Assembly: GCA_030867875.1 (NCBI GenBank)
Contig: JAOWCC010000577.1
Span: 94,035,740 to 94,099,739, forward strand
Reading direction: 5' to 3'
DNA: 64,000 nucleotides
From: Actinernus sp. WN-2022
Taxonomy: Eukaryota; Cnidaria; Anthozoa; Actiniaria; Actinernidae
The translations under genes were made by a program, and so were the position numbers. The notes below the pieces were generated by a model, which saw nothing but the letters and a program-made list of their open reading frames with translations, ran no database searches and had not been told where the DNA came from. This document shows, piece after piece, positions 12,820-61,204 of the stretch (positions are counted from its first letter, which is position 1; each line of letters begins with the position of its first letter).

Positions 12820-13264
12820 AAGGCCCCGTTACACGGTGAGACGTTTTCGCGAAGGTTTCAAGAAGAATTGCATCGTGTAACATGTACCTAAAACTCGTTT
12901 CAACCTCCTGTTTACCAGCCTACCGCGACATAATTATTTTTAGTTCCATGCCCTCGATCGAGAGGCGCGCGAAAATATGACATGGCGTTCACGTTTCTGA
13001 TTGGTTTGAGAACTGAAGCACAGCGACGAACGTTTCACGAAGGGTGTTACGCGATGCAATGGTTGGCATTATATGAAACTGCTTTTGCGTTCGAGTTTCA
13101 CGAAAAATTAGAATGCAGTTCCACTTTTCATGAAACTGTCTCGCAACGCAAACGAGTTTCATAAAGACGACCATGCTACACGGTACAAGTTTTGTTGAAT
13201 CCTGTCACGCAACGCCGTTACACTCACGTTTCACGAAAAAGTTTCACCGAGTAACTGGGCCTTA
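12820..13264. mobile_element. MITE-like element with AAGGCCCCGTTACACGGTGA ends
   Basis: AAGGCCCCGTTACACGGTGA at 12820 is matched imperfectly by the reverse complement of GTTTCACCGAGTAACTGGGC (to 13264). Internal stretches with GTTTCACGAA/CATGAAAC repeat in both orientations. The element sits in the intron between the two LamG exons and carries no gene. Confidence 0.65.
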
Positions 13265-13352
13265 AGACTAGGACTTGAGGCCGGGGTAAGTCCTCCCCGA
13301 TAATTTGGAAACACAGTAGACCGGTAATAATTTGCCGGTACAATTCAACTAC

Positions 13353-13748
13353 CTTGCTTGACTTGTTGTCCCTCGGCGTTGCAGGAAAAGACCGTTAGTT
13401 GAGACTCGTTACGATGGAACCACCTCACCACACCGTTGTTAACCTCGAAGTGAAACTGGCCACGGTTGTGACTGGCACCGATGGTATCAAAGATGGAATG
13501 GCTACCCACTATCTCCTTCAGTTTCACCCATGCAGCAACGGTTACGCCTACATATGGCTTTCCTTGGAAGGTGTCACCGTGGAAGAGAATGTCCCCACAA
13601 TACGTGTAAGCGCCATTGCCACATTTGCCTTCTTTGAAGTTAACCAGGATGGCACCTGCCATCAGGTAGCCGTTGTTAGCATAGCCAGATGAGTCCTCCA
13701 CAACATTGCCAGACGTTTTGTTGAAGTCGAGCTTACAGACGAGTCTCT
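13353..13748 (-). CDS. LamG-like domain gene, exon with N-terminal half of the domain
   Basis: The translation opens with LVCKLDFNKTSG then EDSSGYANNG, the typical first strands of a LamG-3/pentraxin-like jelly roll (L-x-F-D-x-x-S-G, D-S-S-G-x-x-N-x-G). It continues through YVGVTVAAWVKL and ends QQVKQ. The acceptor is TTTTCTTATCAAG (AG at 13749-13750) and the donor is CAAG|GTAGTT (intron GT at 13351-13352). Length is 396 nt, exactly 132 codons, with both borders in phase 1. It joins the 14128 exon (A|AG = Lys) and the 11971 exon (G|AC = Asp) without shifting frame. The product is inferred to be extracellular. Cys residues occur in the CGNGAYTYCGD segment. Confidence 0.85.
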
Positions 13749-14127
13749 CTTGATAAGAAAATTAAATTGCACAACGGTGTGAGGATGATAATGATGACCG
13801 ATTATGATGACGATGATGCCGATGATGTTGATAACTATGATGATGTTGATAACTATGATGATGTTGATAACTATGATGATGTTGATAATTATGATGGCGA
13901 TAATGATGATGACAATGATGATAGTGATGCTAATAATAATCATTATCATAATAATATTCATATTAATTATGATAATGATGACAATAATGATGATAGTGAT
14001 GATAATAATAATCATATTAATTATGATAATGATGATGATGAGGATAACAACAATGATAATGATGAGAAACAGAAGGAATTGTTTTCCAGGCACAGTAACC
14101 AGTTCAATATTAAGCCACAATACTTAC
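13749..14127. repeat. GAT/AAT microsatellite in a LamG-gene intron
   Basis: From about 13790 to 14065 the intron is almost wholly GATGATGTTGATAACTAT-type repeats and AATGATGAT runs. It produces long low-complexity open frames on both strands (Asp/Asn-rich or Ile-rich) that are artefacts. Confidence 0.9.
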
Positions 14128-14211
14128 TGTCGGGTGTAAGCTGTGACCCTGATGATGCGACTACGCTGGGGACAGTGGCCCGTTTGGAATTTTTGGGAAA
14201 TGCTTGGGTAA
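14128..14211 (-). CDS. LamG-like domain gene, small upstream exon
   Basis: This is an 84-nt exon in phase 1 at both ends. It begins after the acceptor AATGTTTTTAG (AG at 14212-14213) and ends at the strong donor GACA|GTAAGT (GT at 14126-14127). It encodes a Ser/Thr/Pro-containing linker (SKRATVPSVVASSGSQLTPD) that reads straight into KRLVCKLDF of the next exon. A linker before an extracellular domain fits this gene. Upstream exons carrying a signal peptide were not found between here and the assembly gap at 15032. Confidence 0.65.
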
Positions 14212-14509
14212 CTAAAAACATTTTTAAAAATGGCATCCTTAGTACTACGAATCTCATTCACCAGCAACAAAGGCCGCATCAGTTGATAAAGAAACTCATA
14301 ACACACGTACATATGTTATGCAAAGAACAACTGGCAATGGTTCTGATCAGTTAAGTATCTTTTCAGCACTTTTAAAGATATGCATGGAGTGAACAGGAAA
14401 TATACTGTTACGAAAGAGGGATAAGTGAAAAGACATAACACATCTCAGAAATGGAAGACTGACATGATTTTAATTGATTAATTATATTTTATCTAAGGAG
14501 TAACATGGC

Positions 14510-15005
14510 ATACTCTAATTAAGAAATAGAAAACATTTCCGTGTTTCCATACGGAGTTATGAAACACGAGTAGTAGAGTTGGAAGAACGAGAAATGGGGC
14601 GAGTGTTTCCACTGCTATTTCGAGTTCTTCCGATCTTCCAATGTTTCTATGACTCTATGGGAAGATGAGAAAACTGTTTTCTATTTCCTTTATATATATA
14701 ATTATAAAATAAACGAGTAAAAGCACGGAAAAACTTTCGTTTTATTTGATCAGCAAAACCTAGCTCAAGTGCGCGCTCGAATTTCTATGTTTTTATAGAG
14801 GTATAGAAACACGGCTGTCAACCAAACGCGCATACTATCGAATATATTTTATAACTGCTTTTACAACACAGATTCGCGCTCTGCTTGGTTCAAAGCCGTA
14901 CGTGATTCTAAACTAAAACAAGGTACGATTTTAAAGACAAAAATTGAGATTTTCTTAAACGTTTCTCATTTCTATTTCATAAAGAAATAGAACACAGTTT
15001 CTGTG
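14510..15005. mobile_element. MITE-like inverted repeat (GAAATAGAAAACA-type ends)
   Basis: GAAATAGAAAACATTTCCGTGT near 14523 is answered by CATTTCTATTTCATAAAGAAATAG near 14965-14990, and inner blocks (ACGAGTAG/GAAGAACGAG, CTATTTCGAGTTCTTCC) are also inverted. Boundaries are uncertain because the assembly gap is 30 bp away. Confidence 0.5.
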
Positions 15006-15031
15006 TTCACATAATTATAAGTAACAGCATG

Positions 15032-15131
15032 NNNNNNNNNNNNNNNNNNNNNNNNNNNNNNNNNNNNNNNNNNNNNNNNNNNNNNNNNNNNNNNNNNNNN
15101 NNNNNNNNNNNNNNNNNNNNNNNNNNNNNNN
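15032..15131. other. Assembly gap
   Basis: Exactly 100 N, the conventional placeholder for a gap of unknown size. It adjoins the CATCA satellite, which probably caused the break. Confidence 0.99.
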
Positions 15132-15643
15132 CATCACATCACATCACATCACATCACATCACATCACATCACATCACATCACATCACATCACATCACATC
15201 ACATCACATCACATCACATCACATCACATCACATCACATCACATCACATCACATCACATCACATCACATCACATCACATCACATCACATCACATCACATC
15301 ACATCACATCACATCACATCACATCACATCACATCACATCACATCACATCACATCACATCACATCACATCACATCACATCACATCACATCACATCACATC
15401 ACATCACATCACATCACATCACATCACATCACATCACATCACATCACATCACATCACATCACATCACATCACATCACATCACATCACATCACATCACATC
15501 ACATCACATCACATCACATCACATCACATCACATCACATCACATCACATCACATCACATCACATCACATCACATCACATCACATCACATCACATCACATC
15601 ACATCACATCACATCACATCACATCACATCACATCACATCACA
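15132..15643. repeat. CATCA pentanucleotide satellite
   Basis: About 102 perfect copies of CATCA without an interruption. The left end is lost in the gap, so the true array is longer. A five-base period gives a repeating SHHIT translation in every frame, which is not a gene. Confidence 0.99.
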
Positions 15644-15659
15644 CTGATGGGTTTTATAT

Positions 15660-16480
15660 AGATCGTGTACAAACGTAGTCCAGAGTTCTACCAACATTTA
15701 TATAAAAAGATAATTTTACAAATAATTTACAATTAGCTTTACATATAGTTTTACAAATAAAATTATATACAAAATAAAATATATTATCAGATGTCGAGAT
15801 CTCCTTTCTATTTTTTAAAATTTAGCTGATGCCTTTTAGAGTATCTTTAGTGGGTTTATTAGTGAAAGAAACAATTGTTTTTCTGTCATTGTCTTGGTTT
15901 AAATGTTGAACATAAATCTTCTCCCTATGGTAACTGGTTTACATGTTCCCCCTCCGCTCCATGTAGTGTATTTTCTGTGACCGCCCCTGCCATATTGTAA
16001 TGAAACTGATACAGTTACTCGGCACATACCACAATTTCTGCCCAGCACTTTTGTGTAACAGAGTGACATCTGTTCATTTTGTCCAAGAAAAGAACTTGCA
16101 ATGCCTCAAGTTATCTGTAGAAGATCATTCCACAAACAAATAGCAATAAGAGTTGCTTTAATAAATTGATTTGAAGTGCTTCCCCCCTTCTATTTCTTCT
16201 TGTAATTACCTGCAGAAAATTAGGCATTAGTTACGAATGCTTAGAAAAAGTTTTATTTTTCAGGTTCCCACATATTTCCCATCTATATTTATTAGTTTGG
16301 GTGACTCCCTCTTTATACTCCTTTATTGTTTTAGGTGAGCCCCCTTTGAAGCCTTTTTTTAACTGTTTGTATCCAATTAACAGCCACTAAACGAGCGATT
16401 ACTCGATACATGCGCAGTACCATGACATAGCCCCTTTAAAAATACTGCTGTGTGTGATGCCTATAAAGTAAACGTCAGTA
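15660..16480. other. Intergenic stretch without a recognised gene
   Basis: AT-rich sequence. The part at about 16370-16435 (AACAGCCACTAAACGAG then CATGCGCAGTACCATGACATAG) resembles 38205-38250 and is probably a shared dispersed repeat. Confidence 0.45.
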
Positions 16481-16613
16481 ACTCGTGATAGTCTGGTGAG
16501 ACTGACTGAACTTGAGGCCGACGTTGGACCTACGATTTTACGTCCTTATCCGAGAAGACGAAGGTCTAACCATTTGCAGTTCGAGAATGAGATTGTTTCG
16601 CAAAGGCAGCACC

Positions 16614-16652
<39 letters not shown>

Positions 16653-16714
16653 CCGGGTTTGAACCCGCGACCTCCCGCACAACAGACCGGCGCTTACCCA
16701 CCCAGGAGGCGGAC
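16480..16714 (-). mobile_element. tRNA-derived SINE
   Basis: On the minus strand a tRNA-like head starts near 16714. It has an A-box-like TGGGTAAGCGCCGG (16687-16703) and a good RNA polymerase III B box, GGGTTCAAACCC (16655-16666). GTCCGCC at the start can partly pair with GGCCGGAC after the T arm. About 160 bp of non-tRNA body follows. It is a SINE rather than a tRNA gene, because the acceptor and anticodon stems are imperfect. Confidence 0.7.
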
Positions 16715-16855
16715 TATATACTTGTCTCATTCTGATGCAATATTCACAAATACCAGCGAGATTCAAAGGTGCAGAAGTTCAAACTTCAACAATACATAGA
16801 GTTGTGAATAACCCATCTTGCCGCTGGTATATATGAATATTTAACGTCAAGACGA

Positions 16856-17335
16856 GGCTAAAGGCCTGCGCAAACGAGGAAACATTGATGCTGACAATAT
16901 TTCTTGATTGAGTAAACGAGCGGGAAACAAGAAAAAAAAATGTTGCCTGACTGAGCAAACCAAGAAATATTTCACGATCGAGAGACAAATATTGGTGTAT
17001 TTAGGTCAAATGGGCTAATTAACGAGGGTATCTAGTCAACATTGTTGCCTCGGCGAGCAAATTCGGGGAAAAAATTCGCTTTCCGACTAAAAGATGTTTC
17101 TGAAAGACATTAAAACATTTGTTACCGAGAAGCAAATTTTGCTTCCGCAACATATGTTTCTCTAGATACCAGGGATACGCAATGCAACCATGTTTCCTCG
17201 CCTTGCCCGCCGAAGCAACACAAGAATTGTTTTGCATCCCGCTTCTTTGCTCACTCAAGAAACATGGCAAGAAACATTATCAGCAATAATATTTCCTCAA
17301 AGACTGTTTTTTCGTTTGCCAAAGGCAAGTTGGTG
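16856..17335. mobile_element. MITE-like element (GCCTGCGCAAACGAGGAAAC ends)
   Basis: The left part (GCCTGCGCAAACGAGGAAAC, then ATTGATGCTGACAATATTTC) resembles the reverse complement of the right part (CAGCAATAATATTTCCTC, then CGTTTGCCAAAGGC). Several internal copies of GAAACAT/ATGTTTC lie in both orientations. It has no coding capacity. Confidence 0.6.
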
Positions 17336-17339
17336 AAAG

Positions 17340-18170
17340 GCATATGGCATCATTAAATTATCAGCTGTCACAAATCTCGCGGGCCATATTTTATTTATAG
17401 AGCAAATTTAGCAGGAATCAACCAGAAGATAAATTTAGCATTCAGAAAGCGAAACATGAACTTAAAAGAGCACTTACAAGGCTAGCGGCAAACCTATACA
17501 GTATGCTATCAATATATGTAATAATTTACCAAAGAACTTTACCTAATGGAAGTTAAAAAGTCTCCTGTAACAGAATATTAATAGAAATTAACAAAGAAAA
17601 AAAGGCCCAATCTCGTTCTTGTTAATTAGATGGACCGGTTGCGTCATCAAGCGAGACTGTAGTGATGCAGCTCATTAGGTTACAACGGAGTTCTTGTTAT
17701 TGTCAATTCACATCAGGATCGAATATGTCAAAAACTCCAGATTCAAATTCCGTGATAACTCTACAGTAAAAATATTGATCACCAACCGACTGTGATCTGT
17801 TATCGACAACGGACCTATTCTCATTATACTCCCCACGGTCTCTCAGAATGAGCTATTTTCTTTCAGCGAGCGTGTGTGTTAATTGTAAATAACCTTTTGT
17901 TTTAGTACCGAATAATTTAAACGCTCAATTATTCCGCCAACACAAATATCCATAGACGCATATAGAGAACTTGAAAGACATGTTTTGTTGTCCTTGGCAA
18001 CATTAATAACTGTAATACTCGAAACCATGAAGCATGGCTCTTGCGAAAAATCCCCTTCTTATAAATGGCCCACTACACGCTAAATATGTTGAAATATATT
18101 TTAGATGGTGTATATTTTAACTGTCTAACCATGTGGGAGGGACTAGCATTTTGTTGATCCATTTCCCGTG
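17340..18170. other. 5' flank of the repeat-protein gene
   Basis: AT-rich, with no exon or repeat family recognised. It leads into the promoter region of the plus-strand gene starting at 18290. Confidence 0.4.
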
Positions 18171-18177
18171 ATCTCAT

Positions 18178-18185
18178 TATAATTT
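18178..18185 (+). promoter_or_regulatory. TATA-like box
   Basis: TATAATTT lies 105 nt upstream of the start codon at 18290. The gene at 39299 has a TATAATTA at a very similar distance. The transcription start is not known. Confidence 0.35.
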
Positions 18186-18289
18186 CATATAGAGTTCCCG
18201 TAAGTGGTCCTAAGCACGTGGTTCGATGTCTTTATTGTGCGACACTCTGAGTTCAGAGTCGTTAGAGAAGCCGTTGTGAAGGTGTTAAC

Positions 18290-18374
18290 ATGGCGGTTCG
18301 AGTATTGGTATACTTGTCTCTCTTTATCGTGATTCAGATTGGAACATTCGCATTGCCACTACCGCTTGAACGAA
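18290..18374 (+). CDS. Secreted Glu/His/Pro-repeat protein, exon 1 (signal peptide)
   Basis: The exon starts with an ATG in a good eukaryotic context (AACATGG). It encodes 28 residues with a basic n-region (MAVR), a hydrophobic core (VLVYLSLFIVIQIG) and a likely signal-peptidase site after TFA. It ends at CGAA|GTAAGT, a strong donor, leaving one base of a split codon (phase 1). The next exon at 23347 starts with GT, completing AGT (Ser) and keeping frame. The intron is about 5.0 kb and holds only repeats. This start is preferred to the internal ATG at 23442 because it supplies the signal peptide and the phases match exactly. Confidence 0.8.
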
Positions 18375-20859
18375 GTAAGTTGGATAGGAATACATTTTTG
18401 TCTATTTCAATACGTTCAACATAACGAAAATCAAAACATACAAATGAGATCGTAATATATTTCATTACTTTGAACTTTTAAGCTTTTGGTCGAAACGGTA
18501 CGAAGTACGTGGAAGGAAAAACGTTTCTTTGGAATTAAATAAATCAAAATATTCTGAACTTAAAAACATAGATTAAGTTTTGCGAGAGAATAATGTCTTC
18601 ATCGTTTCACATTCTCTCTGTTTATAGCACTTGTTGTTTCTCGATTACTTTATGATATAGCTTGAAGTCGAGAAAAATATGTTTAGGAAATAAAATTAAA
18701 ACGCTTGAAAATATTAGGGATGGGGAGTATGAAAATGCCAGTGCAAGAATGAAGATCACCGACAAAATTTAGATTATTATCTTAAAATTTGCAGCCATAA
18801 CAACTCAGAACTATTCTATTGTGAGAATGTTCCCGTCATGCGATCATTCCTCACTTTCGGAAAACTTTCTAAGTTTCTTCGGGTCATGCATATGTAGACC
18901 TCCTTTTTTCGATAAATAATACTCTATCATTTCTTACTAAAATGAAGAGACTCATTTAAAACAAGACGGTAGAACTGAAGCTGAAATCGAGCCGTTATTA
19001 AATATTTATGTGAAGTGAAAAGATTTAGCATTCGAGATCAAAGATATTTGAATTAGAGATCGTTTCAATTTTGTATTCATTGGCTATAGAGTTTGGTTTT
19101 AATATTTATCAAGTTGAAGCGAATACAAAATAATAATAACTTGTAATTTGGTATGTTTTTACGCAAATAATGTCGAAGAAAGGAGAGAAATAGAAATAAG
19201 GTTTGGTCGAGCAGAATAATGGTCGAGCAGAACAGAATAATGAACTCTTTAATAAACATGTCTTATCTGATGAATGGTTGTTTCGAAGGTTTAGACACTT
19301 TAAAAGCGTTAATGACGCTGAACTAAGCTTCTTGAATTGGAATTGTTGCGGGCTTTTTATAGATTCAAGTGAAATACGCCTACTATAAATTGAGATTATA
19401 AACAAAATCTTCCATGTCGTTATTTACAACTCCTGCTCATTCTTTTCCCCGTTACGTTTTTCAATATATATATATTTAGGGAACAAAATCGGCCACGTTT
19501 TGAATTGATTTTGAAATATCAGTTTGAAATAACTTTGGCACAGATATCGAGAAATCTAAAACTTCGGTTCTCGGAATCCCGTATATTATTGGGTTGCAAT
19601 TATTCCTAAGGGAATACAATCACAAAAGAAGCAAATGGTTTCTTTTGTTCCTACCAACCAACATGGACGCCAGTGCAACCCACCAATATCCTGTTAACAC
19701 AGTCCAAAATCAAGATTTAAGGTCGGAAGTTCTCACGATCGGTTTTAAACGTATTTTCTTGAAGAAAATATCGTAACATTTTAATAAATTCAGGAAATCT
19801 AAGAGGCTGTTTTCAATTCGCGCTTGGCTCATCGCGATTGATTAACACAAAAAGTAACTAAAAACTGAATAAAATATATCGGGTAATGACTCCTCTCGCG
19901 TAGTTAGTTGACGCGCGACATCTTAAGCCCGATTTCATTACAGCTGCCTCTATCATGCCTCGATAAGCGTGGAGACGCTTGGTTGCCCAGTAGGAGCTAT
20001 TTCAATTCAAATCATATGCAGCAGTGTTTTCATTTTCGTAGATTCTCACTTGAAATCATATGCAGAGGTGCAGGTGTTACGCTGTCAAAATAATTTCTAA
20101 GATTTAACAAAAACAATTAATAACTGCAGCACGTAGCTTTAAAGTAAGACGCCTTAATTTTGATTAAAAAAAAACTGAGCGGACTTGTTAAGTTAGGGTA
20201 GCTATATCCTCGTGTTTTTATTTAACACTTTTTCACGTATTACAACCATCGTTTGGTTATAGGCAAGGCTTAAGTTTCCATTAAAGGCGTCCTAATGACA
20301 TATATCTTTAAGAAAATACGTAACTAGAAGATAAATATGTTCAACATTTGTCTAACCTAGACAGTCTAAAATACTTTTCTTCCATTATTTGGTCCAATGA
20401 TAGGTGGCTGTTTAATACTTTAGAGCTCACAAATGAATATAATAAGCATAGCGCAGATAAAATGTTTTAACTGCTATTGCTCTGTCGCTTCCGCCCGCAG
20501 AATCAACAAACCTTTACGTCTAAATATTGAAATGTTGGTCAAACACCAAACTACATTCCAATTCGTTAGTCGGAATACTTAAATATAAGCCTTTGGCTTG
20601 GGAGACCCGGTAACGGCTGCTTGTATCTTCGTCGTAACATAAACCATATATATATATATATACACATTGAAATAAAAAAATGAAATATGTGTCTGTTTAT
20701 AGATTATATTATTAATTTACGAAAATAACCCTTATGGTACCCAAACTATTTCTTCTCGTCATCATATCTTATATGCTTATAGTTTCAGGAGTTAGATTTC
20801 CAGTAAAAAAGCCAAATAAATTATTATCTTTTGTGAAATACCAAAAATAGTGGTGGATT

Positions 20860-21943: not shown

Positions 21944-22386
21944 AAGCAGTATAAAGAAGAAACCCATCTCTATATATAAATAATCAGAATAAAGGTGAAA
22001 GAGAAAATATGTGCTCTGAGTGGGATTTGAACCCACGGCCTCGGCATACTAGTCCGCTGTGTTACCACTACACCATCAGGACCAACCACGCTGGCAACGC
22101 AGCCAGTTGATGGTGTCATTGTGGAACGTAACCGTGGGTACTCCCGGCATTTTCTCTTTCTGAGTCGAGATGGGAAAGCCTATAACTTTAAACTAGCTTT
22201 CAACCTAAGGATCATACTGAATCACAGGCGGACAGACAAAGCTGACCTAGGCCAACTTAGGAATCACTAGGTTTAAAGGATCCCGAAGGATTCAGGCTTA
22301 TTTAATAAACACATATAAACAGTATAAAGAAGAAACCCATCTCTATATATAAATAATAAGAAAAAAGGTGAAAGAGAAAATATGTT
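21944..22386. repeat. Direct repeats flanking a tRNA-like sequence
   Basis: A block of about 70 bp containing AGTATAAAGAAGAAACCCAT and GGTGAAAGAGAAAATATG occurs at 21944-22012 and again at 22317-22386. Between the copies lie the tRNA-like sequence (22013-22082) and about 230 bp of unknown sequence. On the minus strand the order is body, unknown, tRNA head, body, which suggests two tandem SINE copies with one head lost. Confidence 0.7.
22013..22082 (-). mobile_element. tRNA-like SINE head (tRNA pseudogene)
   Basis: On the minus strand this folds partly as a tRNA. The D arm is perfect (GTGT-AGTGGTA-ACAC). The T arm is GTGGG-TTCAAAT-CCCAC and includes the B box GGTTCAAATCC. The acceptor stem has one mismatch and a wobble, and the anticodon stem has mismatches at both ends, so a working tRNA is unlikely. 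A SINE promoter head is the better reading. Confidence 0.6.
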
Positions 22387-45150: not shown

Positions 45151-45599
45151 AAAACAGCCATAGGGGATGATCAAAGTCAGAACCCGGGTAATCCACAGAT
45201 CGAATTGGAATTTTGCAATTCCTGAAAGAGAATATATACGTTATAACTTTGGTGAAGGTGAAACTTAATAGACGGACTACACATGAATGAGATTTATCAA
45301 CACTTTCCACAAGTCGAAGTCATTAATCTCTCTTCACTGGCTCTCATATTCTTTTCTGTCTTATTTAAGGGCAAAAATGCCGAATGTAGCTCAGACTTTC
45401 TTTAGGTGTTGAGGCTAAACTATAGAATCCGTGTGGCAGTTAGTTGCCAAATTGCAGTATTTGTCGTTCTAAAATGACCGCGGACCGCGGTGGCAGTTAA
45501 TTTTAGGTTAGATGTCTATAAAATGGCCAGGTATTCTATACTTTTAATATCCCTATATATATATCGAGTCCAATGAAATGGTACTGAACTAAGTAAACG

Positions 45600-45800
45600 T
45601 TTCAACAACAACAACAACAACAACTTTTTTATTCGCATAATTTCATCCATGATTTGAAGCGAAAGGCTTTCTTTAGCACAACACTGCATTTTCTGCACGG
45701 TAATAATTAATCGTACATATTGTAAAGCAATTTCAGGATAATTATGGCATGCCGATTCTTTGAATAGGAATTCGAACTTTTTCATTTTATAAACTATTGC
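45600..45800 (-). mobile_element. LINE 3' end with TTG tail
   Basis: On the minus strand the last codons (SLSLQIMDEIMRIKKLLLL) run into GAATAAAAAAGTTGTTGTTG, a (TTG)n tail like that of the LINE at 42464. It ends about 10 bp before the PIF1-bearing element. Confidence 0.5.
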
Positions 45801-46716
45801 TTACTCGATCACAGGCCGCCCAAGTTCTGACTTTGTATGGGAGTTCTTCCGATAACTCAGAATTATTAATAACATAAATTTAGTTACAGATCTTCTATAA
45901 TACAAGGTAAATAAAGGAAGAAGACTTACTTGAAGTTGTTTTGTCGTCCTATGTGTGTTTCAGGTCGCTAGAACCGTGTTTTATGGAATTCTTGAGTCAT
46001 ACGCTTCACCCCTCTAATCAGAGGGGTGTTTCCTTTATTTTATTGTATCACATGATCATTTATCAGTTTAAGGGCCTGTGTGAGCGAGAGAAAGTCAAAA
46101 TTGTTTATCAATTGGTACTTTATTAACAGTACTGGCTAGCGTTCTACAGTATGTACGATGTCAATACATGGTAGGTACGCATTTAAGGCAAGCGAATGTT
46201 TGAAAACATCAATTTATAATCTAATTAAATTATTTTATAAGGATGGAATTGGGATATAACCTCAACAACGTGATAAAATCCTCGGTAAATAGAGTTGCAG
46301 TGATCAAATAAGCTTATTAAAATCTGTCAATAACAATGTCAGGTTACATGTCTTTGTTTGAATAAGGAATCCAAGCTTTATATGCATGCTCCTATTAGGA
46401 GCATAAATACAAAAAAAAGGGTTGCTCTCGCGTGATTAATGATTCAATTAATAATTACCCGTAAACATATCATTTTGCAATATTCAAATTACAGCTAGGG
46501 AAGAATGCAAATGTCTGCCTAGTTCCATGCAGTGTGCAATTGCTTCATGCATGAAATATTTAAGTTACAGTAAAATATGTGTTCATGTACATGTAGACAT
46601 AAAAAAATAGAAGTCTTGTATCCCTCACAGGTTAATTATGATCAATCATGAAATCTGCAAGAGCAACCTTTTTGAATTAGGTGTATATTCTAGACATTAT
46701 TGTAAGGATTACCTGC

Positions 46717-47043
46717 TTACACGTTACCCCTTGAGCTTCCTAGTAGCATCACAACCCGTCCTGTTTGGGGATCTGAATTTGTCTGTAAAACCCTGTACTG
46801 CCTGGAATCCACAGCGACAGGTGCTTGCATCCCCTTCCCTGGTAAGACAGCTGCAGATAGTCCCCTTGCAAGAGAGGTCTTGTTGAGCCTGGTGCTGGCT
46901 GGTACTCCATACGCCTCACACAGCTTTATCAGTTGTTGCTTGGTATACACCCCAACAAGTGCTTGAAACTGGTGCTGCTTAATGAAGTTAAGCAATCTGC
47001 CATTGCTTGCAGATTTTGCTGGAGTGTTGTCCTTGATAATCTC
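46717..47043 (-). CDS. PIF1-element gene, last exon (SAP-like segment)
   Basis: The exon starts after AAATTTCTAG (AG at 47044-47045) in phase 0 and runs 108 codons to TAA. Its middle (LVGVYTKQQLIKLCEAYGVP, then ASTRLNKTSLARGL) looks like a SAP motif, a helix-extended loop-helix that binds AT-rich DNA. It ends near SRQYRVLQ and MLLGSSRG. It joins the 47437 exon exactly in frame. AATAAA candidates lie downstream near 46030-46045 (minus strand). The SAP assignment is by eye. Confidence 0.6.
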   Translation of the reverse strand, partial: EIIKDNTPAKSASNGRLLNFIKQHQFQALVGVYTKQQLIKLCEAYGVPASTRLNKTSLARGLSAAVLPGKGMQAPVAVDSRQYRVLQTNSDPQTGRVVMLLGSSRGNV

Positions 47044-47436
47044 CTAGAAATTTGAAATGGAATGACATTTTATGACATTCATATGAGTCTGGCATCAAGG
47101 CAACTCACATCTAAATGACAATTAAGCTAAATCCACATGTTATACAAAATGTTATATCCAATATGAGTATAACAATAAATTACATGTGTACCAGGTAATA
47201 TCTTAAATTAATATTTTAAGCCAGGCTAAAAATAGGATATGAAAAATAGAACCATTACAACCAAAATTTATTTAATGGCATGAAATTTGGTCTGGAAATT
47301 TGATACAAAATATTGCTAAGTCACATGTCAACAGTTTCAATGCAGGTGTTATTTGCTTTCTGTAATGAGGCAACGAGACAGTCTTGCTTTCATAACATTG
47401 TTAACTGAAAGTATTATACTTGATTTTAATAAGTAC

Positions 47437-47613
47437 CTGATATGGGACACTGTCTGATTTCTGTTTCTGTTTCTTGTTTTTTTGAAGGACTCGCTTCCTC
47501 AGCTCTGCAGTCTTCTTTAGTTTTTGTGTCATCCTAAAGTCACGCAGATATTGGTTAGCCCCCATGTTGACGTATCTTGTGATGATCCTGGCCAGTATTG
47601 TACGGATTGTTTC
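47437..47613 (-). CDS. PIF1-element gene, middle exon
   Basis: A 177-nt exon, phase 0 at both ends. The acceptor is TGAATAACAG (AG at 47614-47615) and the donor CATATCAG|GTACTT. It encodes ARIITRYVNMGANQYLRDF followed by a strongly basic stretch (KKTAELRKRVLQKNKKQKQK), which is probably nuclear targeting or nucleic-acid binding. Upstream it joins CFPFSVVTYKM of the long exon without loss of frame. Confidence 0.6.
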
Positions 47614-48003
47614 CTGTTATTCAATAGACATTGATTGTGAATAACTATAGCTTATGTGATACCGTTTTCCTTAAAGCTCTGGGGTAGTTAGAGGTAGATT
47701 AAAGTTTGCACAATTATAATATATTTGCTTTAAATTCTTATTATTAACACTGCTAGATATGTCTATTTACAAAGTATCTGGGATCAATACAATAAAATTT
47801 GCTGACATATTTTACCAATGATTCATCCTTACATATTATAGTGGCTTCAAGAAAGCATAATTACAATATTGTAAAATTATGTTGTACAATATCAGTGACA
47901 CATTTTGTTCCCTCTAGCTTATATTTTTACAGTTAGCTTGTTTTTCTTTTCATAATACCTCAATGGCCCACAGTTATTGGTGAAAGCTGTTGTGGCATCC
48001 CTA

Positions 48004-48045
48004 CCATATGGGGAAGTTGAATATTTATTCAACTTCCCCATATGG
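48004..48045. repeat. 42-bp near-perfect palindrome in an intron of the PIF1-element gene
   Basis: CCATATGGGGAAGTTGAATA and its exact reverse complement are separated by TT only. It lies in the intron 47614-48123. Such a structure can extrude as a cruciform or mark a small insertion. Confidence 0.9.
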
Positions 48046-48123
48046 ATGAATAAACGAATAAATGGATAAACTTTATTAATGGAACTATATAGGAAGAATA
48101 GTTGTAATTATTAGCATCCTTAC

Positions 48124-50517
48124 CATTTTATAGGTGACAACACTGAAGGGGAAGCAGGAAAACCACAGTCTCTCTAACTCAGGATCATCACCCATCTCCT
48201 TGTATGTATTCTCAACAAGATTGCCCTTCAGCTGCAAAAGTCTTCTAGAGTTCATTAAGTTGACTCGAAGCTGTTCCATGTATAAAAAAAAGGTGAAACA
48301 ACTGTCAGAAATATGGATCAGGCCCCTTTCTCGGTACTGCCTTGCCTCGGTAACTTGAAGAGTTTCTGGGTGCTCACTGGATGTCTCTAGTTTGTCAAAG
48401 GGAACAGTGAGGGACTCTTCGATTATGGTGCAGATTTCCAAGCTCTTTTTGACTCCCTCGAATATTGCTGCCTCTGTTGTGTTGACATTTGATTAGACAT
48501 GTCTGCGAGCATCTTCTAAAACCTTTCGCACTGCCCAGCCCCCTACGTGTCGCACCTTCCCTTTCCCTACATCTGCCATGTCAGATACTTGGATTATTGT
48601 AATTGGTGCCTGCTGATCTACTTCATGTTTTTTTGAGATAGCATCAGCAAGGTTACCTAAGAAGTTGTTGAACAATTCCATGGTCAGGTCACATGACAAT
48701 GCCATTTGTGGTGAATCCTCAACTATTTCAATGTTGAATAGGGCTCTTTGATACAGTGCAAACTCATTTGAGTTGAGGAAATTGTGGATCTTAGCTATTG
48801 CACCTGTAAAGCCTTCCCTGGCTATGTTCACAATTACCTCATCAGGGTTCTCAGATATGTAGTCATGGAAAATACAATAGAAATGGTGCCAAACTAAATT
48901 CACAAAAGCAACAACTTTATCCTGATTGGAACATATATTGTCTATGCACTCATTTTTCTCTTTTGCATAGTCACTGACTGGGCTTTGTACTTTTTTCGAA
49001 TTTAACAGATTTATAATATCAAGAGCAGGGGGTGGATGTGCAAGTTCTGAATCAGGTTTGGTCAGTTCTTGGTAAATTTATACAATGTCAGTTATTACTG
49101 TGTCCCCTTCCTGTTCAAACTGAGATGATGTGGGGCCATCACAACATTCCTGAGGAAAAACAAAGTTTTCATCTCCTATTTCTTCATCTGGAGAAAACCT
49201 ATCCTTTATATTAAATAGGTGGTCCTCTTCAGGAGGAATAATGAAAGCATTGCAACAGGACAGATCGTCGTACACTTCACCAGGATTAGTGCTGCATTCC
49301 TCCAGAACCCTTGCACTCGGACGTAGCACCATATCAGGTCGAAAGTCTAATACCTGTATATGCTCAGGGGCCCTTACCCTGGAGATGGCAACGTATGTCA
49401 ACCCAGACACAAACTCCCGTGAGCAGTGGATCACAGCAGAGGTAAGGGTTAAGCCCTGCGACTTATGACAGGTCATCCCATAAGCCAAGACAATAGGGTA
49501 TTGTCGAATATTGCCTACCACTGCTCCATTTATATCACGCTTGATCCATGTCTGCTTATCGATAAGAAGGGAGACAACCTCCGGAAAAGAGACCCTTAAC
49601 TTATCATCGACACACTCTTGGAATACGCCCTGGGTACCATTGTGAAGGCAGTTAGTTAAATTCCACACTAACATCACCCGACAGTCAGGCTTCAAGTGAA
49701 GTATATGGCTTCCAGGCCAGTTGATTCCCCTTGTCTCTCCTTCGGATTCCGCTTCGAATCTCATCTCGTGGCCTGCTAATTGTGCCAGCGTTTCCCTGAT
49801 GTGGATGGCAGCCGTGAGCTTTTTGAAGAAGATGTGGGTGGCATTGACAGAATCAGTTATTGGTCTTGAAAGGCTCTTCAAATAGGTGTTAGTTTCCGGT
49901 GAACACGGCCCAAGCCTTACATCTTGCAATGCTGCCAAGAATGCTGGATCGGTTTGCCTTTTTACTTCTAGCAACTGAAATCGATTGGGAAAGGCCCTCC
50001 TAAAATGGGTGCGTTAAACATAAAGGCACCTTCATCAAAATCGTTTGGTACTGGCCGGAGTTGCAGAAACTCGCCCACGAGGATGAGCTGTTTACCGCCG
50101 AACGGAAGTCGCTCTGATCGCCCCTCACTTAGTCGATGATGTATGCCGTTTACAATCTCCAACATTCGCTTGCTGGACATACTGGCTTCGTCCCAGATTA
50201 TCGTATCAGTCTCTCGAACTCGATTACCAACTAGGTTGTTGCTCGTGGACCTGTCTATAAGTTGCTTCCATGGCAGTGCGGCGATCTCCATGCAGTGCAT
50301 ACTTCGAATGGACTGTGGAGGCGACCCCTATGTCGTAAACCGAAGATGCAATCCCACTCGAGCATATCACTGCAACTCTTTTACCTTGATTCCTTAGATT
50401 TCTTATTATTTCTACTACGAGTAGGGATTTCCCGGTTCCCGCCCGACCGGTTATCACGGTATTATGGCCTTTAGAAGCAAAATCCAAAATCTCTGATTGT
50501 AGAACAGTCAACCTCAT
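48124..50517 (-). pseudogene. PIF1-like helicase fused to a novel C-terminal region (decayed first exon)
   Basis: The minus strand starts at ATG 50515-50517 with MRLTVLQSEILDFASKGHN. It carries GRAGTGKS (Walker A, 50425-50448), IIWDEAS (Walker B, about 50181-50203), GGKQLILVGEFLQLRPVP (motif III, with Glu and Arg where GDxxQLPP is usual), MTCHKSQGLT (motif V) and YVAISRVR (motif VI). Single-base frameshifts occur at about 50285 and about 49985. The frame meets TAA at 49078-49080, but the same frame stays open for 194 more codons (ELTKPDSELAHPP, DEVIVNIAREGFTGAI, GKVRHVGGWAVRKVLEDARR), meets a second TAA at 48493-48495, and continues to the donor at 48124. Exons at 47437 and 46717 complete about 960 residues. 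The helicase part resembles eukaryotic PIF1-like proteins that unwind DNA. The middle region is unknown. Confidence 0.8.
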
Positions 50518-51267
50518 GGCGAGTGAACTTCGTTGTATGGTTCTTTTGTTTGTTTATTTTCGCGGAAGACCACATGGAAGACCACAGCCGGGTTTTCCCT
50601 ATGCTTCTTCGCGATTGGCTTACCCTACGCAAAAGCTCGTTACGCGATTGGTTCTCCAGTACAATAGATGTCACCGGCGCGGTTCAGTGGTATCGTGGGA
50701 GGGGAGGGAGGGATTAGAAAGTGTCAAATGAATTTGATATGTCCCTCTCAGGGAAATAAATAATTTGTAACGGCCTGGTTACCCAAACGCCTGGTTACCA
50801 ACACGCGTTGTCAAGAAGGACCATTCATTGGACGTTACGATCTGTCAGCCGTTGGAAGCTGCACGAATTGCTTCAAAAATCGTTCAAATCTAACGGGATT
50901 GGAAAGGAGTTATCAAGCCTGGGGACTTCTGAGGGATAATTGATGTCCATGGATTGTACCGCGGTCGAGTAACCGCCGATGGGATTGATATTTTGTGAAA
51001 AATTCGTCCTCGAGCGAAGGCCGTCGATGTATCGAGTGTTCAGCCTTTCCCTCTGGTTAGAGGGGTGAAGCGTATGACTCAATAATTCCATAAAACACCG
51101 TTCTAGCGACCTGAAACACACATAGGACGACAAAACAACTTCAAGTAAGTCTTCTTCCTTTATTTACCTTGTATTATAGAAGATCTGTAACTAAATTTAT
51201 GTTATTATTCTGAGTTATCGGAAGAACTCCCATACAAAGTCAGAACTTGGGCGGCCTGTGACTCGAT

Positions 51268-53130
51268 CTGCGGTATCTGGACTGATTGTTTTTTTCAAAA
51301 TGATGATATTCTATTACTGTACTGAGTATTAATTTATCTTACAGAATTGGACTCTAAATAAGTCATGACATTCAGGTATTCCTTTCACATTTCATAAGCA
51401 ACTCCAGTCACGCCGCGGTAAACTATAGTAAACTGAATGTACTTATAAACAGCTCTGATATAAATTATACACGCTTAGTTATACGACAAAAGCTACGAGT
51501 TCTTACCTTCAATTCGTATCTATTCCCGAAGATTCCTTATTGTTGATACGAAACAAATGGCGCTAGAACGCTGCCGTTCAACTAAATTAAAGTGACGGTT
51601 AATTACAATTCACTTTGGGTCAGCTTTTGCATGCCTGAATTGGCTGAAATAACACTAGTCTGTAATCCGATTGGTTTAAAGTTGACACTTCGCACGTAGC
51701 GGGATATTCAATTTCATTATAAAGTGTTTTCTCATGTTCCTGTTAGCCTTCCGGTGGGTGTCATCGGCATCGGTTCAAATTATATTCAAGCAAGCACCCG
51801 TATTCTTATATACTTCGACTTAGATCGATCCTATCGAAATTAATAGTTATCGGAGGCTCCTTATCGGATAACCACACAAGTACGAGACGATGTTTTCCGG
51901 TGAAATATGCTTTGTACCAGGTTCAAGAGGGTTCTGTTGTTTGAGCGTGATGTATGTCGTTTATCATCTAGAAGATTGCGTCAGCCGATCACCGAAGCCC
52001 AAAGACGTTTCAGCTACGAATTCTCGTCATATTTATAGTCTTGATCAGCTTTCACGTGTTGTTTAATAATCGAGTCTCAGTAGTTATTTTCACTATCAAG
52101 CAAAACTGAAAAGTAAAAGATTTACAGATCAGATCGTCTAAGGATCAACTAGTTACGAGAGGCTTAGGTTGTTAGTAATACATTTTTCATTATTTGTTGT
52201 TGGACTTAGGGTCGTCGGCAAAGGAGCCTTGTCTGTTTGTGCATTATTCTAGCATAACATTCCTTTAGCCATTTGGGGTGTGTTATCACTAGGCAAGGAT
52301 ATTTGGACGGACACATGTTTCAAGCATAATATTTCTTTAGGCATTTGTTTGGCTGTTTTTAAGGTGTTAAGATCTGATACCTGGTTCTAATTATAAACCG
52401 CGCCACCAAGGGAGAGCAAGTACTCGTTCTCTGCTGTATTTACGCGAAGACAAAGACGATTTCTTCAAAATGTGCGATTAATGTAAATTCAAATAAGTAG
52501 AAGAGGAATGGCTTGAACTAAGAGCGATACGCGAAATATAAAAGGTCTTCTAAATGCTACTTTGGTTAAATAAATAATCTGACAGGCTTCTGTCAATTAG
52601 TGTGCTGTGACTGGCCGCGGCATGCGGCAGGACAACAATATTCCCTAACCGAGTAATGATTTAACTCGGTAAAATTTAGCCCGAGTGTTGTCCCTCAGTA
52701 CATGAATACCGTACATATTGGAATTTAATTTTGGGACCTTGAGGGTGGGCGCTTATTCGAGGTGGTTTAACCATAGTTCACCTCTATTAACTAGTATACC
52801 TAACAGATAGTGAATGCTGCTCCGCTCAGTTAAGGGAGTGTATTAGAAGAGAACTCACAGTAGCACTTTGGCAGGAAAAATAGATTACTGGGTGATAAAA
52901 ATGCTAAGGTGTTTAAGATGAATATATTTTGTAGTTTTAGGGCTATCGTGTGACTGAATCCTGTTTGAGCTGTGGTGTGTAACTCAAAAGTTGTCGCGAT
53001 TTATTTTCATTTTGTTCCGACATATCAACGATCTCCCGGTAAATTCCCTGAGCCTACCAATTCCCGACATTTTCTTAACATTCCCGGCACAACAAACTGC
53101 TGTTCTCCCCGGTGAAGTTTAAACACCGGA
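51268..53130. other. Non-coding part of segmental copy 1
   Basis: 51410-51800 is clearly related to 56780-57170. Shared blocks include CGTAG(C/T) with a minus-strand donor (TTGAAG|GTAAG), AATAACACTAGTC.GT, and CCGATTGGTTTAAAGTTGACA followed by TCGCA. The shared donor and CCAAT box suggest a conserved promoter and 5' UTR exon, but the transcribed gene is not identified. 52.0-53.1 kb holds nothing recognised. Confidence 0.5.
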
Positions 53131-54845: not shown

Positions 54846-55280
54846 ACTTAAAGAAGAGAGAATACATAACGAAAACACGGCAGAAGAAACAAGTAAAACA
54901 CGTTCCAAAAAAGGTTACAATATTCCAAATTGTAAATTATGGTATAATGTTGAGAGTTTACAATAACTTTGACATAATATTGGATTTTTCTGGTACATTC
55001 CTACGGTACGACCCAAATATCTCTGAATGTTTTTTTCGCCAGTACGTATTCACTTCTCAAATTTAAATTGTGTCATCAACATTATAAGATATGCTTCACA
55101 ATCATCTGATAAATTCATAAGTTTCTTACCAAAGTAAGATATTCGGTGGATTATATTTCGGTTCAGTCCTAGCATTGTACCACTAGGAACTTTTTAAAGT
55201 ATTATTTTTGTGAATCACTAAACTTCAAACCACATGTTTTTAAATCACAGTATTCTCCAACTCGGTTTATCAGACTTATA
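54846..55280. other. Spacer between terminal exon and array
   Basis: AT-rich sequence with no exon or repeat family recognised. Confidence 0.4.
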
Positions 55281-56060
55281 CCTGCGTGTTTGGTAATTAC
55301 CAGACTCAGACCTGTGTGTTCGGTAATTACCAGACTCAGACCTGTGTGTTTGGTAATTACCAGACTCAGCCCTGTGTGTTTGGTAATTACCAGACTCAGA
55401 CCTGTGTGTTTGGTAATTACCAGACTCAGACCTGTGTGTTTGGTAATTACCAGACTCAGCCCTGTGTGTTTGGTAATTACCAGACTCAGACCTGCGTGTT
55501 TGGTAATTACCAGACTCAGACCTGCGTGTTCGGTAATTACCAGACTCAGCCCTGTGTGTTTGGTAATTACCAGACTCAGACCTGCGTGTTTGGTAATTAC
55601 CAGAATCAGACCTGTGTGTTTGGTAATTACCAAACTCAGCCCTGCGTATTCGGTAATTACCAGACTCAGTCCTGCGTGTTCGGTAATTACCAGACTCAGT
55701 CCTGTGTGTTTGGTAATTACCAGACTCAGTCCTGCGTGTTCGGTAATTACCAGACACAGTCCTGCGTGTTTGGTAATTACCAGACTCAGTCCTGCGTGTT
55801 TGGTAATTACCAGACTCAGTCCTGCGTGTTCGGTAATTACCAGACTCAGTCCTGCGTGTTTGGTAATTACCAGACTCAGTCCTGCGTGTTTGGTAATTAC
55901 CAGACTCAGACCTGTGTGTTCAGTAATTACCAGACTCAGTCCTGCGTGTTTGGTAATTACCAGACTCAGACCTGTGTGTTCGGTAATTACCAAACTCGGT
56001 CCTGAGTTCAAGGCACCAAGCTCAGACTTGTGTTTTCGGTAATTACCAAACTCAGACTTG
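55281..56060. repeat. 30-bp satellite with GGTAATTACC palindrome (array 1)
   Basis: About 24 units of exactly 30 bp, GGTAATTACCAGACTCAGAC plus CTGYGTGTTT, run from 55281 to about 56000 without an indel, followed by two less regular units. The palindrome GGTAATTACC contains the homeodomain core TAATTA. Several frames on both strands stay open through the array, giving FGNYQTQTCV or LVITRLRPVC repeats, which are artefacts. Confidence 0.97.
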
Positions 56061-57964: not shown

Positions 57965-58455
57965 TTACCAAAACACAGGTCCGAGTTTGATAATTACCGA
58001 ACACGCAGGTCTGAGTCTAGTAATTACCGAACACGCAGGTCTGAGTTTGGTAATTACCGAACACACAGGACTGAGTCTGGTAATTACCGAACACACAGCT
58101 CTGAGTCTAGTAATTACCGAACATGCAGGACTGAGGTCTGAGTCTGGTAATTACCGAACACGCAGGTCTGAGTTTGGTAATTACCGAACACACAGGACTG
58201 AGTTTCGTAATTACCGAACACACAAGTCTGAGTCTGGTAATTACCGAACACACAGGTCTGAGTCTGGTCATTACCGAACACATAGGACTGAGTCTGGTAA
58301 TTACCGAACACACAGGACTGAGGTCTGAGTCTGGTAATTACCGAACACACAGCTCTGAGTCTGGTAATTACCGAACACACAGGACTGAGGTCTGAGTCTG
58401 GTAATTACCGAACACGCAGGACTGAGTTTGGTAATTACCGAACACACAGGGAAAG
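57965..58455. repeat. 30-bp satellite with GGTAATTACC palindrome (array 2, inverted)
   Basis: About 16 units (GGTAATTACCGAACACACAG plus GTCTGAGTCT) carry the same palindrome as array 1, but the arm CCGAACACACAG is the reverse complement of array 1's CTGTGTGTTTGG. The array is therefore inverted. Three units have an extra GGTCTGA-type insertion. The core varies (GATAATTACC, AGTAATTACC, GGTCATTACC). Confidence 0.95.
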
Positions 58456-59811: not shown

Positions 59812-60140
59812 ATTGAAATAGCGCATCCCACATGGATTACGTTGACGGGTATAACGAAGACAGGTCAGTTTGGATTCCGCTAGTCGTGCCGGGCTAGTCG
59901 TGCCGGGCTAGTCGTGCCGGGCTAGTCGTGCCGGGCTAGCCAAAGAACAATAATGCGAAACAGTATTCCAGGGAATGATGTTTCTGTGGTCTTAGAGCGT
60001 GACTCTCCTGCTGATCTCCCAGCCATCTCCCCCATGAATCCCCCATGCATTGCCCAGATTGAAATAGCGCATCCCACATGGATTACGTTGACGGGTATAA
60101 CGAAGACAGGTCAGTTTGGATTCCGCTAGTCGTGCCGGGC
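59812..60140. repeat. 245-bp duplication interrupting the 14-bp satellite
   Basis: ATTGAAATAGCGCATCCCAC, then TTTGGATTCCGCTAGTCG, occurs at 59813-59885 and again at about 60058-60131. Between the copies lie four satellite units (59881-59936) and the 118-bp block copied from 57.2 kb. The order suggests a template-switch or break-repair event. Confidence 0.85.
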
Positions 60141-61204
60141 TAGCCGTGCCGGGCTAGCCGTGCCGGGCTAGCCGTGCCGGGCTAGCCGTGCCGGGCTAGC
60201 CGTGCCGGGCTAGCCGTGCCGGGCTAGCCGTGCCGGGCTAGCCGTGCCGGGCTAGCCGTGCCGGGCTAGCCGTGCCGGGCTAGCCGTGCCGGGCTAGCCG
60301 TGCCGGGCTAGCCGTGCCGGGCTAGCCGTGCCGGGCTAGCCGTGCCGGGCTAGCCGTGCCGGGCTAGCCGTGCCGGGCTAGCCGTGCCGGGCTAGCCGTG
60401 CCGGGCTAGCCGTGCCGGGCTAGCCGTGCCGGGCTAGCCGTGCCGGGCTAGCCGTGCCGGGCTAGCCGTGCCGGGCTAGCCGTGCCGGGCTAGCCGTGCC
60501 GGGCTAGCCGTGCCGGGCTAGCCGTGCCGGGCTAGCCGTGCCGGGCTAGCCGTGCCGGGCTAGCCGTGCCGGGCTAGCCGTGCCGGGCTAGCCGTGCCGG
60601 GCTAGCCGTGCCGGGCTAGCCGTGCCGGGCTAGCCGTGCCGGGCTAGTCGTGCCGGGCTAGTCGTGCCGGGCTAGTCGTGCCGGGCTAGTCGTGCCGGGC
60701 TAGTCGTGCCGGGCTAGTCGTGCCGGGCTAGTCGTGCCGGGCTAGTCGTGCCGGGCTAGTCGTGCCGGGCTAGTCGTGCCGGGCTAGTCGTGCCGGGCTA
60801 GTCGTGCCGGGCTAGTCGTGCCGGGCTAGTCGTGCCGGGCTAGTCGTGCCGGGCTAGTCGTGCCGGGCTAGTCGTGCCGGGCTAGTCGTGCCGGGCTAGT
60901 CGTGCCGGGCTAGTCGTGCCGGGCTAGTCGTGCCGGGCTAGTCGTGCCGGGCTAGTCGTGCCGGGCTAGTCGTGCCGGGCTAGTCGTGCCGGGCTAGTCG
61001 TGCCGGGCTAGTCGTGCCGGGCTAGTCGTGCCGGGCTAGTCGTGCCGGGCTAGTCGTGCCGGGCTAGTCGTGCCGGGCTAGTCGTGCCGGGCTAGTCGTG
61101 CCGGGCTAGTCGTGCCGGGCTAGTCGTGCCGGGCTAGTCGTGCCGGGCTAGTCGTGCCGGGCTAGTCGTGCCGGGCTAGTCGTGCCGGGCTAGTCGTGCC
61201 GGGC
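59881..61204. repeat. 14-bp satellite TAG(T/C)CGTGCCGGGC
   Basis: Four units lie at 59881-59936, then exactly 77 units (1,078 bp) at 60127-61204 with no indel. The first of these is the TAGTC form. Units 2-37 (60141-60644) are all TAGCC and the remaining 40 (60645-61204) are all TAGTC. The array is far more GC-rich than the region around it. It ends abruptly inside a MITE-like element. Confidence 0.98.

Follow-up and report, generated by a model that had tools for sequence, protein, structure and literature searches.

The element at positions 45810-51260 of the window (the whole stretch of 64,000 nucleotides from Actinernus sp. WN-2022 that was analysed) is very probably an internally deleted, non-autonomous copy of an anthozoan cut-and-paste lineage of the P superfamily, whose full-length members encode a P-type transposase and a PIF1-like helicase, the latter as a regular component and not as a passenger. 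It consists of terminal inverted repeats (TIRs) of about 215 bp, a 7-bp target duplication and, inside, a broken three-exon gene for the PIF1-like helicase; it contains no transposase. The left TIR (45810-46025, forward strand) starts with CACAGGCCGCCC, the right TIR (51049-51260, reverse strand) ends with GGGCGGCCTGTG, and both align at about 96-98% identity, depending on how a single 4-bp gap is counted. The target duplication ACTCGAT was read from the sequence at 45803-45809 and 51261-51267. A TIR transposon with repeats of this length and a perfect 7-bp duplication had been proposed in the first-pass annotation and is borne out here, as is its non-autonomous nature, the window copy being without transposase as it stands. 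The right arm (50548-51260) has its equivalent in one of two long inverted arms of another copy (C1760, see below), and one-ended and miniature copies share as much as 50667-51260 with it.

The helicase gene is located on the reverse strand. Exon 1 (48124-50517), with the start codon and borders read from the sequence and its open reading frames, encodes the PIF1-like helicase followed by a conserved C-terminal region from about 49240. Exon 2 (47437-47613, GT/AG borders) is in frame with exons 1 and 3 and shows 50% identity to residues 515-578 of a Desmophyllum protein (P0011), and exon 3 (46717-47043, with an acceptor AG before 47043) encodes a conserved tail and includes the stop codon. A palindrome with perfect 20-bp arms (48004-48045) lies in intron 1. 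Pfam analysis of the window frame pieces led to PF05970 on two of them (E 6.3e-11 and 6.7e-12) and to sub-threshold matches of Pif1_2B and UvrD_C_2 on a third, a 311-aa piece matched PIF1 in the PDB (E 4.4e-27), and PF05970 was also detected in the C1760 copy (E 1.5e-26) and in P0001 (E 6.3e-28). Judged from these matches, the helicase is PIF1-like. The earlier description as one spliced gene with PIF1 motifs holds for the three exons and the PF05970 matches, but the frame of exon 1 is broken by frameshifts near 50300 and 50000 and by in-frame stops at 49078-49080 and 48493-48495. A SAP-like C-terminus is without Pfam support, the tail (46720-47043) having given no Pfam family at E≤1; similar tails were recognised by eye in the Desmophyllum protein and in P0035 from Orbicella. 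The helicase is multi-copy in its own genome, with at least 50 loci, and six frames of 810-839 aa are without stops. Comparison of the window and C1760 copies led to a dN/dS of 0.51 on only 23 changes, which is no evidence for strong recent constraint. Among phages, 373 records were matched by one of the helicase pieces, in no case with 60% identity or more (26-32% among the 20 matches listed), which is ordinary helicase similarity; no relative was found in viral contigs.

When the TIR was used as query, at least 46 matches were found in the same genome (40 of 1217 candidates scored), and thus the TIRs are present at many places and not only in the window. An exact 7-bp duplication was observed at 18 of 23 two-ended loci, i.e. 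the window copy and 17 further loci; the 18 duplications differ in sequence and none is longer than 7 bp. These 23 comprise the window copy, 16 loci, five further loci and C1760, and loci with a single recognised end were left out. L048 was rejected as a second copy and not counted: both its flanks and its target duplication are the same, and the locus is an inverted duplicate. Five loci (L006, L012, L024, L028 and L047) are without an exact duplication, of which L024 and L028 match at six of the seven positions and appear to represent a single insertion; L050, a degenerate and incomplete copy, lacks the terminal motif. As the TIR family is multi-copy and the 7-bp duplication is reproduced at so many of its loci, the ACTCGAT match is not due to chance. 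The 18 sites, read in both orientations, revealed a palindromic, GTTNAAC-like target preference.

An independent copy of 6871 bp (C1760:13236-20106), with GCGAGAT on both sides, contains the helicase and the N-terminal exons of a transposase, facing each other between long arms of 726 and 675 bp that are inverted copies of one another (91%). The catalytic part of the transposase is deleted in this copy, and its N-terminal pieces gave no Pfam match above the cut-off. The exons match the proteins P0036-P0039 (E 2e-49 to 6e-7), and such relatives carry PF21787/PF21789: TNP-like_RNaseH_N was detected in P0038 from Exaiptasia (4.6e-10), and TNP-like_RNaseH_N and _C in P0039 from Paramuricea (2.7e-8 and 4e-7). 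By these similarities, the partner transposase of the element is an RNase H-type enzyme of the P superfamily, which replaces the unknown family considered in the first-pass annotation. Regarding the features of this superfamily, the RNase H-type transposase is present in the lineage (via the relatives and the matches in a further copy, C790) and absent from the deleted window copy, and TIRs with duplications of 7-8 bp are found throughout the exact loci above and at C790, in each case with 7 bp. The THAP domain typical of P, Galileo and THAP9, which was not used as a condition for membership, had no match at E≤0.01 in P0036-P0039 and did not occur among the precomputed domains of the relatives; as far as tested, the lineage therefore does not belong to the P/Galileo clade with THAP. 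Similarly, by profile only, no Pfam match to the GTP-binding insertion of the RNase H domain was seen in P0038, P0039 or the precomputed domains of the relatives.

Genome-wide, 22 of the 50 helicase loci (55 of 1145 candidates scored) are located at most 20 kb from one of 61 P-type transposase loci (92 of 274 scored), compared to 0.09 expected for random placement; C1760 is not included among the 22. The 22 include pairs that hardly differ from each other (C995 and C1283; C813:55.27 Mb and C1398; C1661 and C1706:0.59 Mb); they are therefore not all independent and represent fewer families. For the second transposase fragment at C1312:14.3 Mb, the place expected for the TIR is occupied by a tandem array instead (L053). 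One might assume that the helicase gene stems from the host or from a Helitron, entered a non-autonomous element by a single capture and is carried as a passenger. Gene capture by DNA transposons is known, in the window copy the transposase is missing and the helicase broken, and 28 of the 50 helicase loci are without a P-type transposase within 20 kb; some of these 28 may be something else, though many copies are decayed. We nevertheless regard such a capture as very unlikely, because P-type transposases are linked at 22 loci whose helicases are 33-65% identical to one query, the same termini recur in a diverged family, the C-terminal region is conserved in 35 proteins, and no HUH/Rep domain was detected in the pieces and relatives scanned.

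That both genes belong to one element is suggested by a pair on C790, for which the right terminus followed by AGGTACC was read in L054. From this right end a left junction of AGGTACC+CACAGGCNGCCCAAG was predicted, and its only exact match in 1.39 Gb is C790:4033490-4033511, left of the transposase; at up to two mismatches the junction has 133 places and the reversed control none. The resulting borders (C790:4033497-4047361) outline an element of 13,865 bp, flanked by 7-bp duplications, which contains a helicase with an open frame of 828 aa and matches to the P0039 protein. Of the transposase, only exon matches were seen, and in two of the three the matched sequence includes a stop; C790 is thus outlined as a two-gene element by its borders, with an interior known from matches. 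In a third pair (C540), the terminus was found with one mismatch at L052:8967, right of the helicase; no long inverted repeat was seen in L052, and the left end would fall outside the stretch read. Helicase and transposase could instead be two different transposons that are often nested or lie side by side, as the distance between their matches varies from 139 bp to 12.8 kb and six linked pairs are on the same strand. This explanation, too, has little probability, given that the other 16 pairs are convergent and none is divergent, that in C790 and C1760 both genes lie within a single pair of 7-bp duplications, and that each of the C1760 arms is an inverted copy of the other. Therefore, from the TIRs, the 7-bp duplications, the shared termini, the linkage and the C790 borders, the window copy is most likely an internally deleted derivative of a helicase-encoding P-superfamily lineage.

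In the 35 helicase relatives, conservation extends through the C-terminal region of about 300 aa with its invariant or nearly invariant residues, e.g. in the stretch GK.K.RHVGGW. Its length and conservation would fit a strand-transfer enzyme, with the helicase gene alone as the mover, but this is the least probable reading, since a P-type transposase is linked and the region has no Pfam match above the cut-off, no relative among solved structures and no significant match to the transposases of the lineage. The same sequence-level comparisons gave no evidence for the earlier option that the part past the helicase is an unrecognised transposase. Homology to the end of P/THAP9 transposases, considered on the basis of motifs, found no support (best E 0.14 among 24 transposase-type proteins).

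Helitrons and Helentrons share with the lineage a PIF1-type helicase in a transposon. Helitrons have an HUH Rep and neither TIRs nor target duplications, whereas the lineage has TIRs, duplications of 7 bp and a linked P transposase, and no Rep domain was detected in Pfam scans of the pieces; a Helitron was thus rejected, in agreement with the first-pass annotation. For Helitrons, a Rep-Hel organisation is reported (PMC6431247). Similar in build is Galileo from Drosophila, a P-superfamily element with long TIRs, 7-bp duplications, the palindromic target GTANTAC, many deleted copies and a DDE transposase (PMC4168063). The lineage resembles it in the length of the TIRs, in duplications of 7 bp at sites of palindromic preference, in deleted copies and in a P-superfamily transposase, and differs in the PIF1-like helicase and in P0036-P0039 being without THAP by Pfam, whereas the Galileo transposase has THAP and the passages on it mention no helicase (PMC4168063). 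The Drosophila P element and zebrafish THAP9 elements likewise have transposases of the P-type family, TIRs and internally deleted copies, but their duplications measure 8 bp, their TIRs are short (31 or 13 bp) and the transposase is their only gene. For the P element, a host Bloom helicase homologue is described as acting in donor-site repair (PMC7776569), unlike here, where the helicase is encoded by the element. KolobokH and AcademH are DDE-type DNA transposons that are reported to encode a helicase, both of different transposase superfamilies. KolobokH carries RecQ and is described as restricted to fungi, although a Kolobok with RecQ on the opposite strand is reported from a rhodophyte (PMC9587614); it was rejected for the lineage, which has a PIF1 helicase and a P-type RNase H transposase instead of RecQ and a Kolobok transposase. 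AcademH may carry PIF1, as a paper citing it jointly attributes domains of the types PIF1, DEAD, Helicase_C and Helitron_like_N to AcademH, KolobokH or Helitron. Dada, with 6-7-bp duplications, was rejected because it is described as without TIRs and inserted in small RNA genes (PMC3706591), and coral CMITEs because they are reported to be linked to piggyBac-like elements (PMC2872659).

Full-length members would thus carry transposase and helicase, mostly facing each other, between ends starting with CACAGGCNGCCC. The transposase, of RNase H/DDE type, would excise and insert the element and thereby generate the 7-bp duplications, and would act in trans on deleted copies like the one in the window and on many miniature copies; we infer activity of the lineage in this sense. 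As a regular component, the helicase would most likely displace strands while the excision gap is repaired by copy-back, leading to an increased copy number, or alternatively in the processing of the transposon ends. It is possible, although we put this forward only tentatively, that the lineage recruited a PIF1-type helicase for such replicative repair and so became effectively copying and independent of a host helicase, with interrupted repair leading to the many internally deleted copies.

What appears to be new is the PIF1-like helicase beside a P-type transposase, a pairing that we have not found described for P elements: among titles and starts of abstracts, no P-superfamily transposon with a PIF1 helicase was recognised. 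With this pairing, a helicase of PIF1 type in the P superfamily would join the RecQ helicase reported for KolobokH (PMC9587614). Coral genes annotated as 'PIF1 helicase' may in part be transposon genes, the Desmophyllum relative being named so. P elements are the textbook cut-and-paste system dependent on host repair, and a P branch with a PIF1-type helicase makes it directly testable whether machinery for repair or end processing can be encoded by a DDE transposon itself.

Terminal inverted repeats (TIRs) of about 215 bp and a 7-bp duplication, both proposed by the first-pass annotation, are present at the borders of the window element, which measures 5451 bp and is bounded by ACTCGAT on either side (45803-45809 and 51261-51267). 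The TIRs (45810-46025 and 51049-51260) start with CACAGGCCGCCC and show about 96-98% identity with a single 4-bp gap. The single spliced PIF1 gene suggested between them was confirmed as to its domain, recognised by Pfam, and its three exons on the minus strand: exon 1 (about 50517 to 48124), encoding the PIF1-like helicase and a long C-terminal region, and exons 2 (47613-47437) and 3 (47043-46717), with GT/AG borders and in frame. The reading frame is however interrupted by two frameshifts (near 50300 and near 50000) and two in-frame stops (49078-49080 and 48493-48495). The supposed SAP-like character of the tail found no support in Pfam, which matches nothing there; the sole Pfam match of the C-terminal region was DUF3978 (E 0.029, under the cut-off of DUF3978). 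An inverted second copy of window 45270-51760, flanks included, lies about 102 kb off at 99.6% identity (locus L048, G000:C1312:93973888-93980332). Its target duplication is identical to that of the window copy and its helicase is broken into the same pieces; this copy is not independent and is either an assembly feature or a segmental duplication in inverted orientation.

Elsewhere in the window, a 100-base N run (15032-15131) abuts 102 perfect CATCA copies (15132-15643), probably an assembly gap within a longer array. Two 30-bp tandem arrays (55267-56004 and 57965-58450) lie about 2 kb apart, with units that by eye appear to be mutual reverse complements, 77 nearly perfect copies of the 14-bp unit GCTAGTCGTGCCGG fill 60125-61204, and a tRNA-Thr gene (anticodon agt) is located at 22011-22082 on the minus strand.

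When the TIR was searched against the 1.39-Gb genome of the same organism (G000), at least 46 matches were obtained (40 of 1217 candidates scored). Target duplications were counted at loci with both ends inside the fetched stretch, leaving out single-ended loci and, as a duplicate, L048. An exact 7-bp duplication was detected at 12 of 16 loci in a first set, at four of five in a second and at 18 of 23 overall, the window copy and a copy on contig C1760 included, and the 18 sequences are mutually different; two of the five loci without it (L024 and L028) resemble one insertion. Pooled over both orientations, the 18 duplications lean towards GTTNAAC, a palindromic preference similar to that of Galileo, given as GTANTAC in PMC4168063. 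Apart from the window and C1760 copies, the loci with exact duplications (16) are 0.3-1.3 kb in size, leaving no room for a helicase gene. Several of 13 further 10-kb stretches match the window element at its right end over up to about 600 bp, reaching upstream of the helicase start, as expected for internally deleted derivatives.

A helicase DNA search of G000 led to L048, a partial copy (locus L050), an independent 98% copy on C1760 and relatives of 65-75% identity. The C1760 element (13236-20106, 6871 bp) is flanked at both ends by GCGAGAT and has inverted arms of 726 and 675 bp (91% identity), the left one carrying exons that face the helicase and match the proteins P0036-P0039. In P0038 (Exaiptasia) and P0039 (Paramuricea), Pfam detected the RNase H domains of P-type transposases; a further search added the relatives P0040-P0059, and those with organism names are presumably all anthozoan. 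The C1760 copy has lost the helicase tail as well as the part of the transposase that holds the catalytic site, and the entire transposase is absent from the window copy. The two look like different deletions of a single longer parent. As both genes begin just within the long arms (the transposase start being a reading of the sequence), these arms probably hold both promoters. An intron of the C1760 transposase gene contains a stretch that looks hairpin-like by eye (L049:1986-2609) and may be another small insertion.

On contig C790, the 801 bp fetched rightward of the helicase contained CTTGGGCTGCCTGTG followed by AGGTACC. If a single element encloses both genes, AGGTACC followed by CACAGGCNGCCCAAG is expected left of the transposase, and exactly this string occurs at a single place in the whole genome, C790:4033490-4033511, as predicted. 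The element outlined by these borders (C790:4033497-4047361; 13,865 bp) includes transposase exon matches to P0039 (4038435-4041507, plus strand) and, as a search match, an 828-aa open helicase frame (4044018-4046420, minus strand). Two of the three transposase matches have a stop inside the matched stretch, and we therefore do not claim that this element is active. Termini rightward of a helicase were also detected on C540 (one mismatch, L052:8967) and C635 (13441523-13441544, with one of the listed junctions). The 22-base junction pattern ending in CACAGGCNGCCCAAG was found at 133 places in G000 with up to two mismatches, compared to none for a reversed control, which suggests that families bearing these termini are numerous.

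Genome-wide searches with P0039 (at least 94 matches at no fewer than 61 loci, from the 92 of 274 candidates that were scored) and with the helicase P0001 (at least 63 matches at no fewer than 50 loci, from 55 of 1145) showed how general the linkage is. Among the candidates scored, 22 of the 50 helicase loci have a transposase locus at a distance of up to 20 kb, where random placement would give 0.09, and 21 have one within 10 kb (0.05 expected). The other 28 have no such neighbour. An earlier tally, based on matches to the helicase DNA, stood at 9 of 29. The linked pairs are convergent in 16 cases; in six, both genes share a strand and the transposase lies upstream; none is divergent. Some of these loci are near-identical, which lowers the effective number below 22; nevertheless, helicase identities of 33-65% to one query point to several families. 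In the same-strand pairs at C995:399445, C1283:1302857, C1288:984606 and C1569:303120, the transposase is located about 2.2-2.8 kb upstream of the helicase, a second arrangement and perhaps one family.

The C-terminal region as query matched 35 proteins (35-51% identity, E 2e-84 to 3e-35), 22 of them 740-864 aa long and 25 with PIF1 in their precomputed domain lists. Among them are proteins of the corals Desmophyllum pertusum (P0011) and Orbicella faveolata (P0035), both with a tail resembling exon 3 by eye. Helicase and C-terminal region are thus one conserved architecture, the tail included in at least these two coral proteins. A dN/dS of 0.51 between the window and C1760 copies derives from 23 changes, too few to reveal constraint in this family; the case for constraint is based on the conservation over 35 relatives and on six G000 loci whose helicase frame is open over 810-839 aa.

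From the RNase H domains of the transposase, the TIRs and the 7-bp duplications, the lineage belongs to the P superfamily and not to an unknown family, one of the two options given by the first-pass annotation. P, Galileo and THAP9 have a THAP domain, whereas Pfam found none in P0036-P0039, and no GTP-binding insertion was detected by profile in the transposase; the lineage is therefore filed as a branch of its own within the P superfamily, one that carries a PIF1-like helicase. No description of this combination was recognised in the literature searched, mainly open-access papers.

Yeast PIF1 promotes break-induced DNA synthesis. According to PMC7776569, P elements move by cut-and-paste with a GTP-dependent RNase H-type transposase that leaves long 3' overhangs, and the host Bloom helicase homologue participates in donor break repair. 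Deleted copies of the present lineage are many and their breakpoints vary, which is compatible with interrupted gap repair but no proof of it. The lineage's transposase would mobilise complete as well as deleted copies. The PIF1-like helicase of the lineage may aid copy-back gap repair or end processing.
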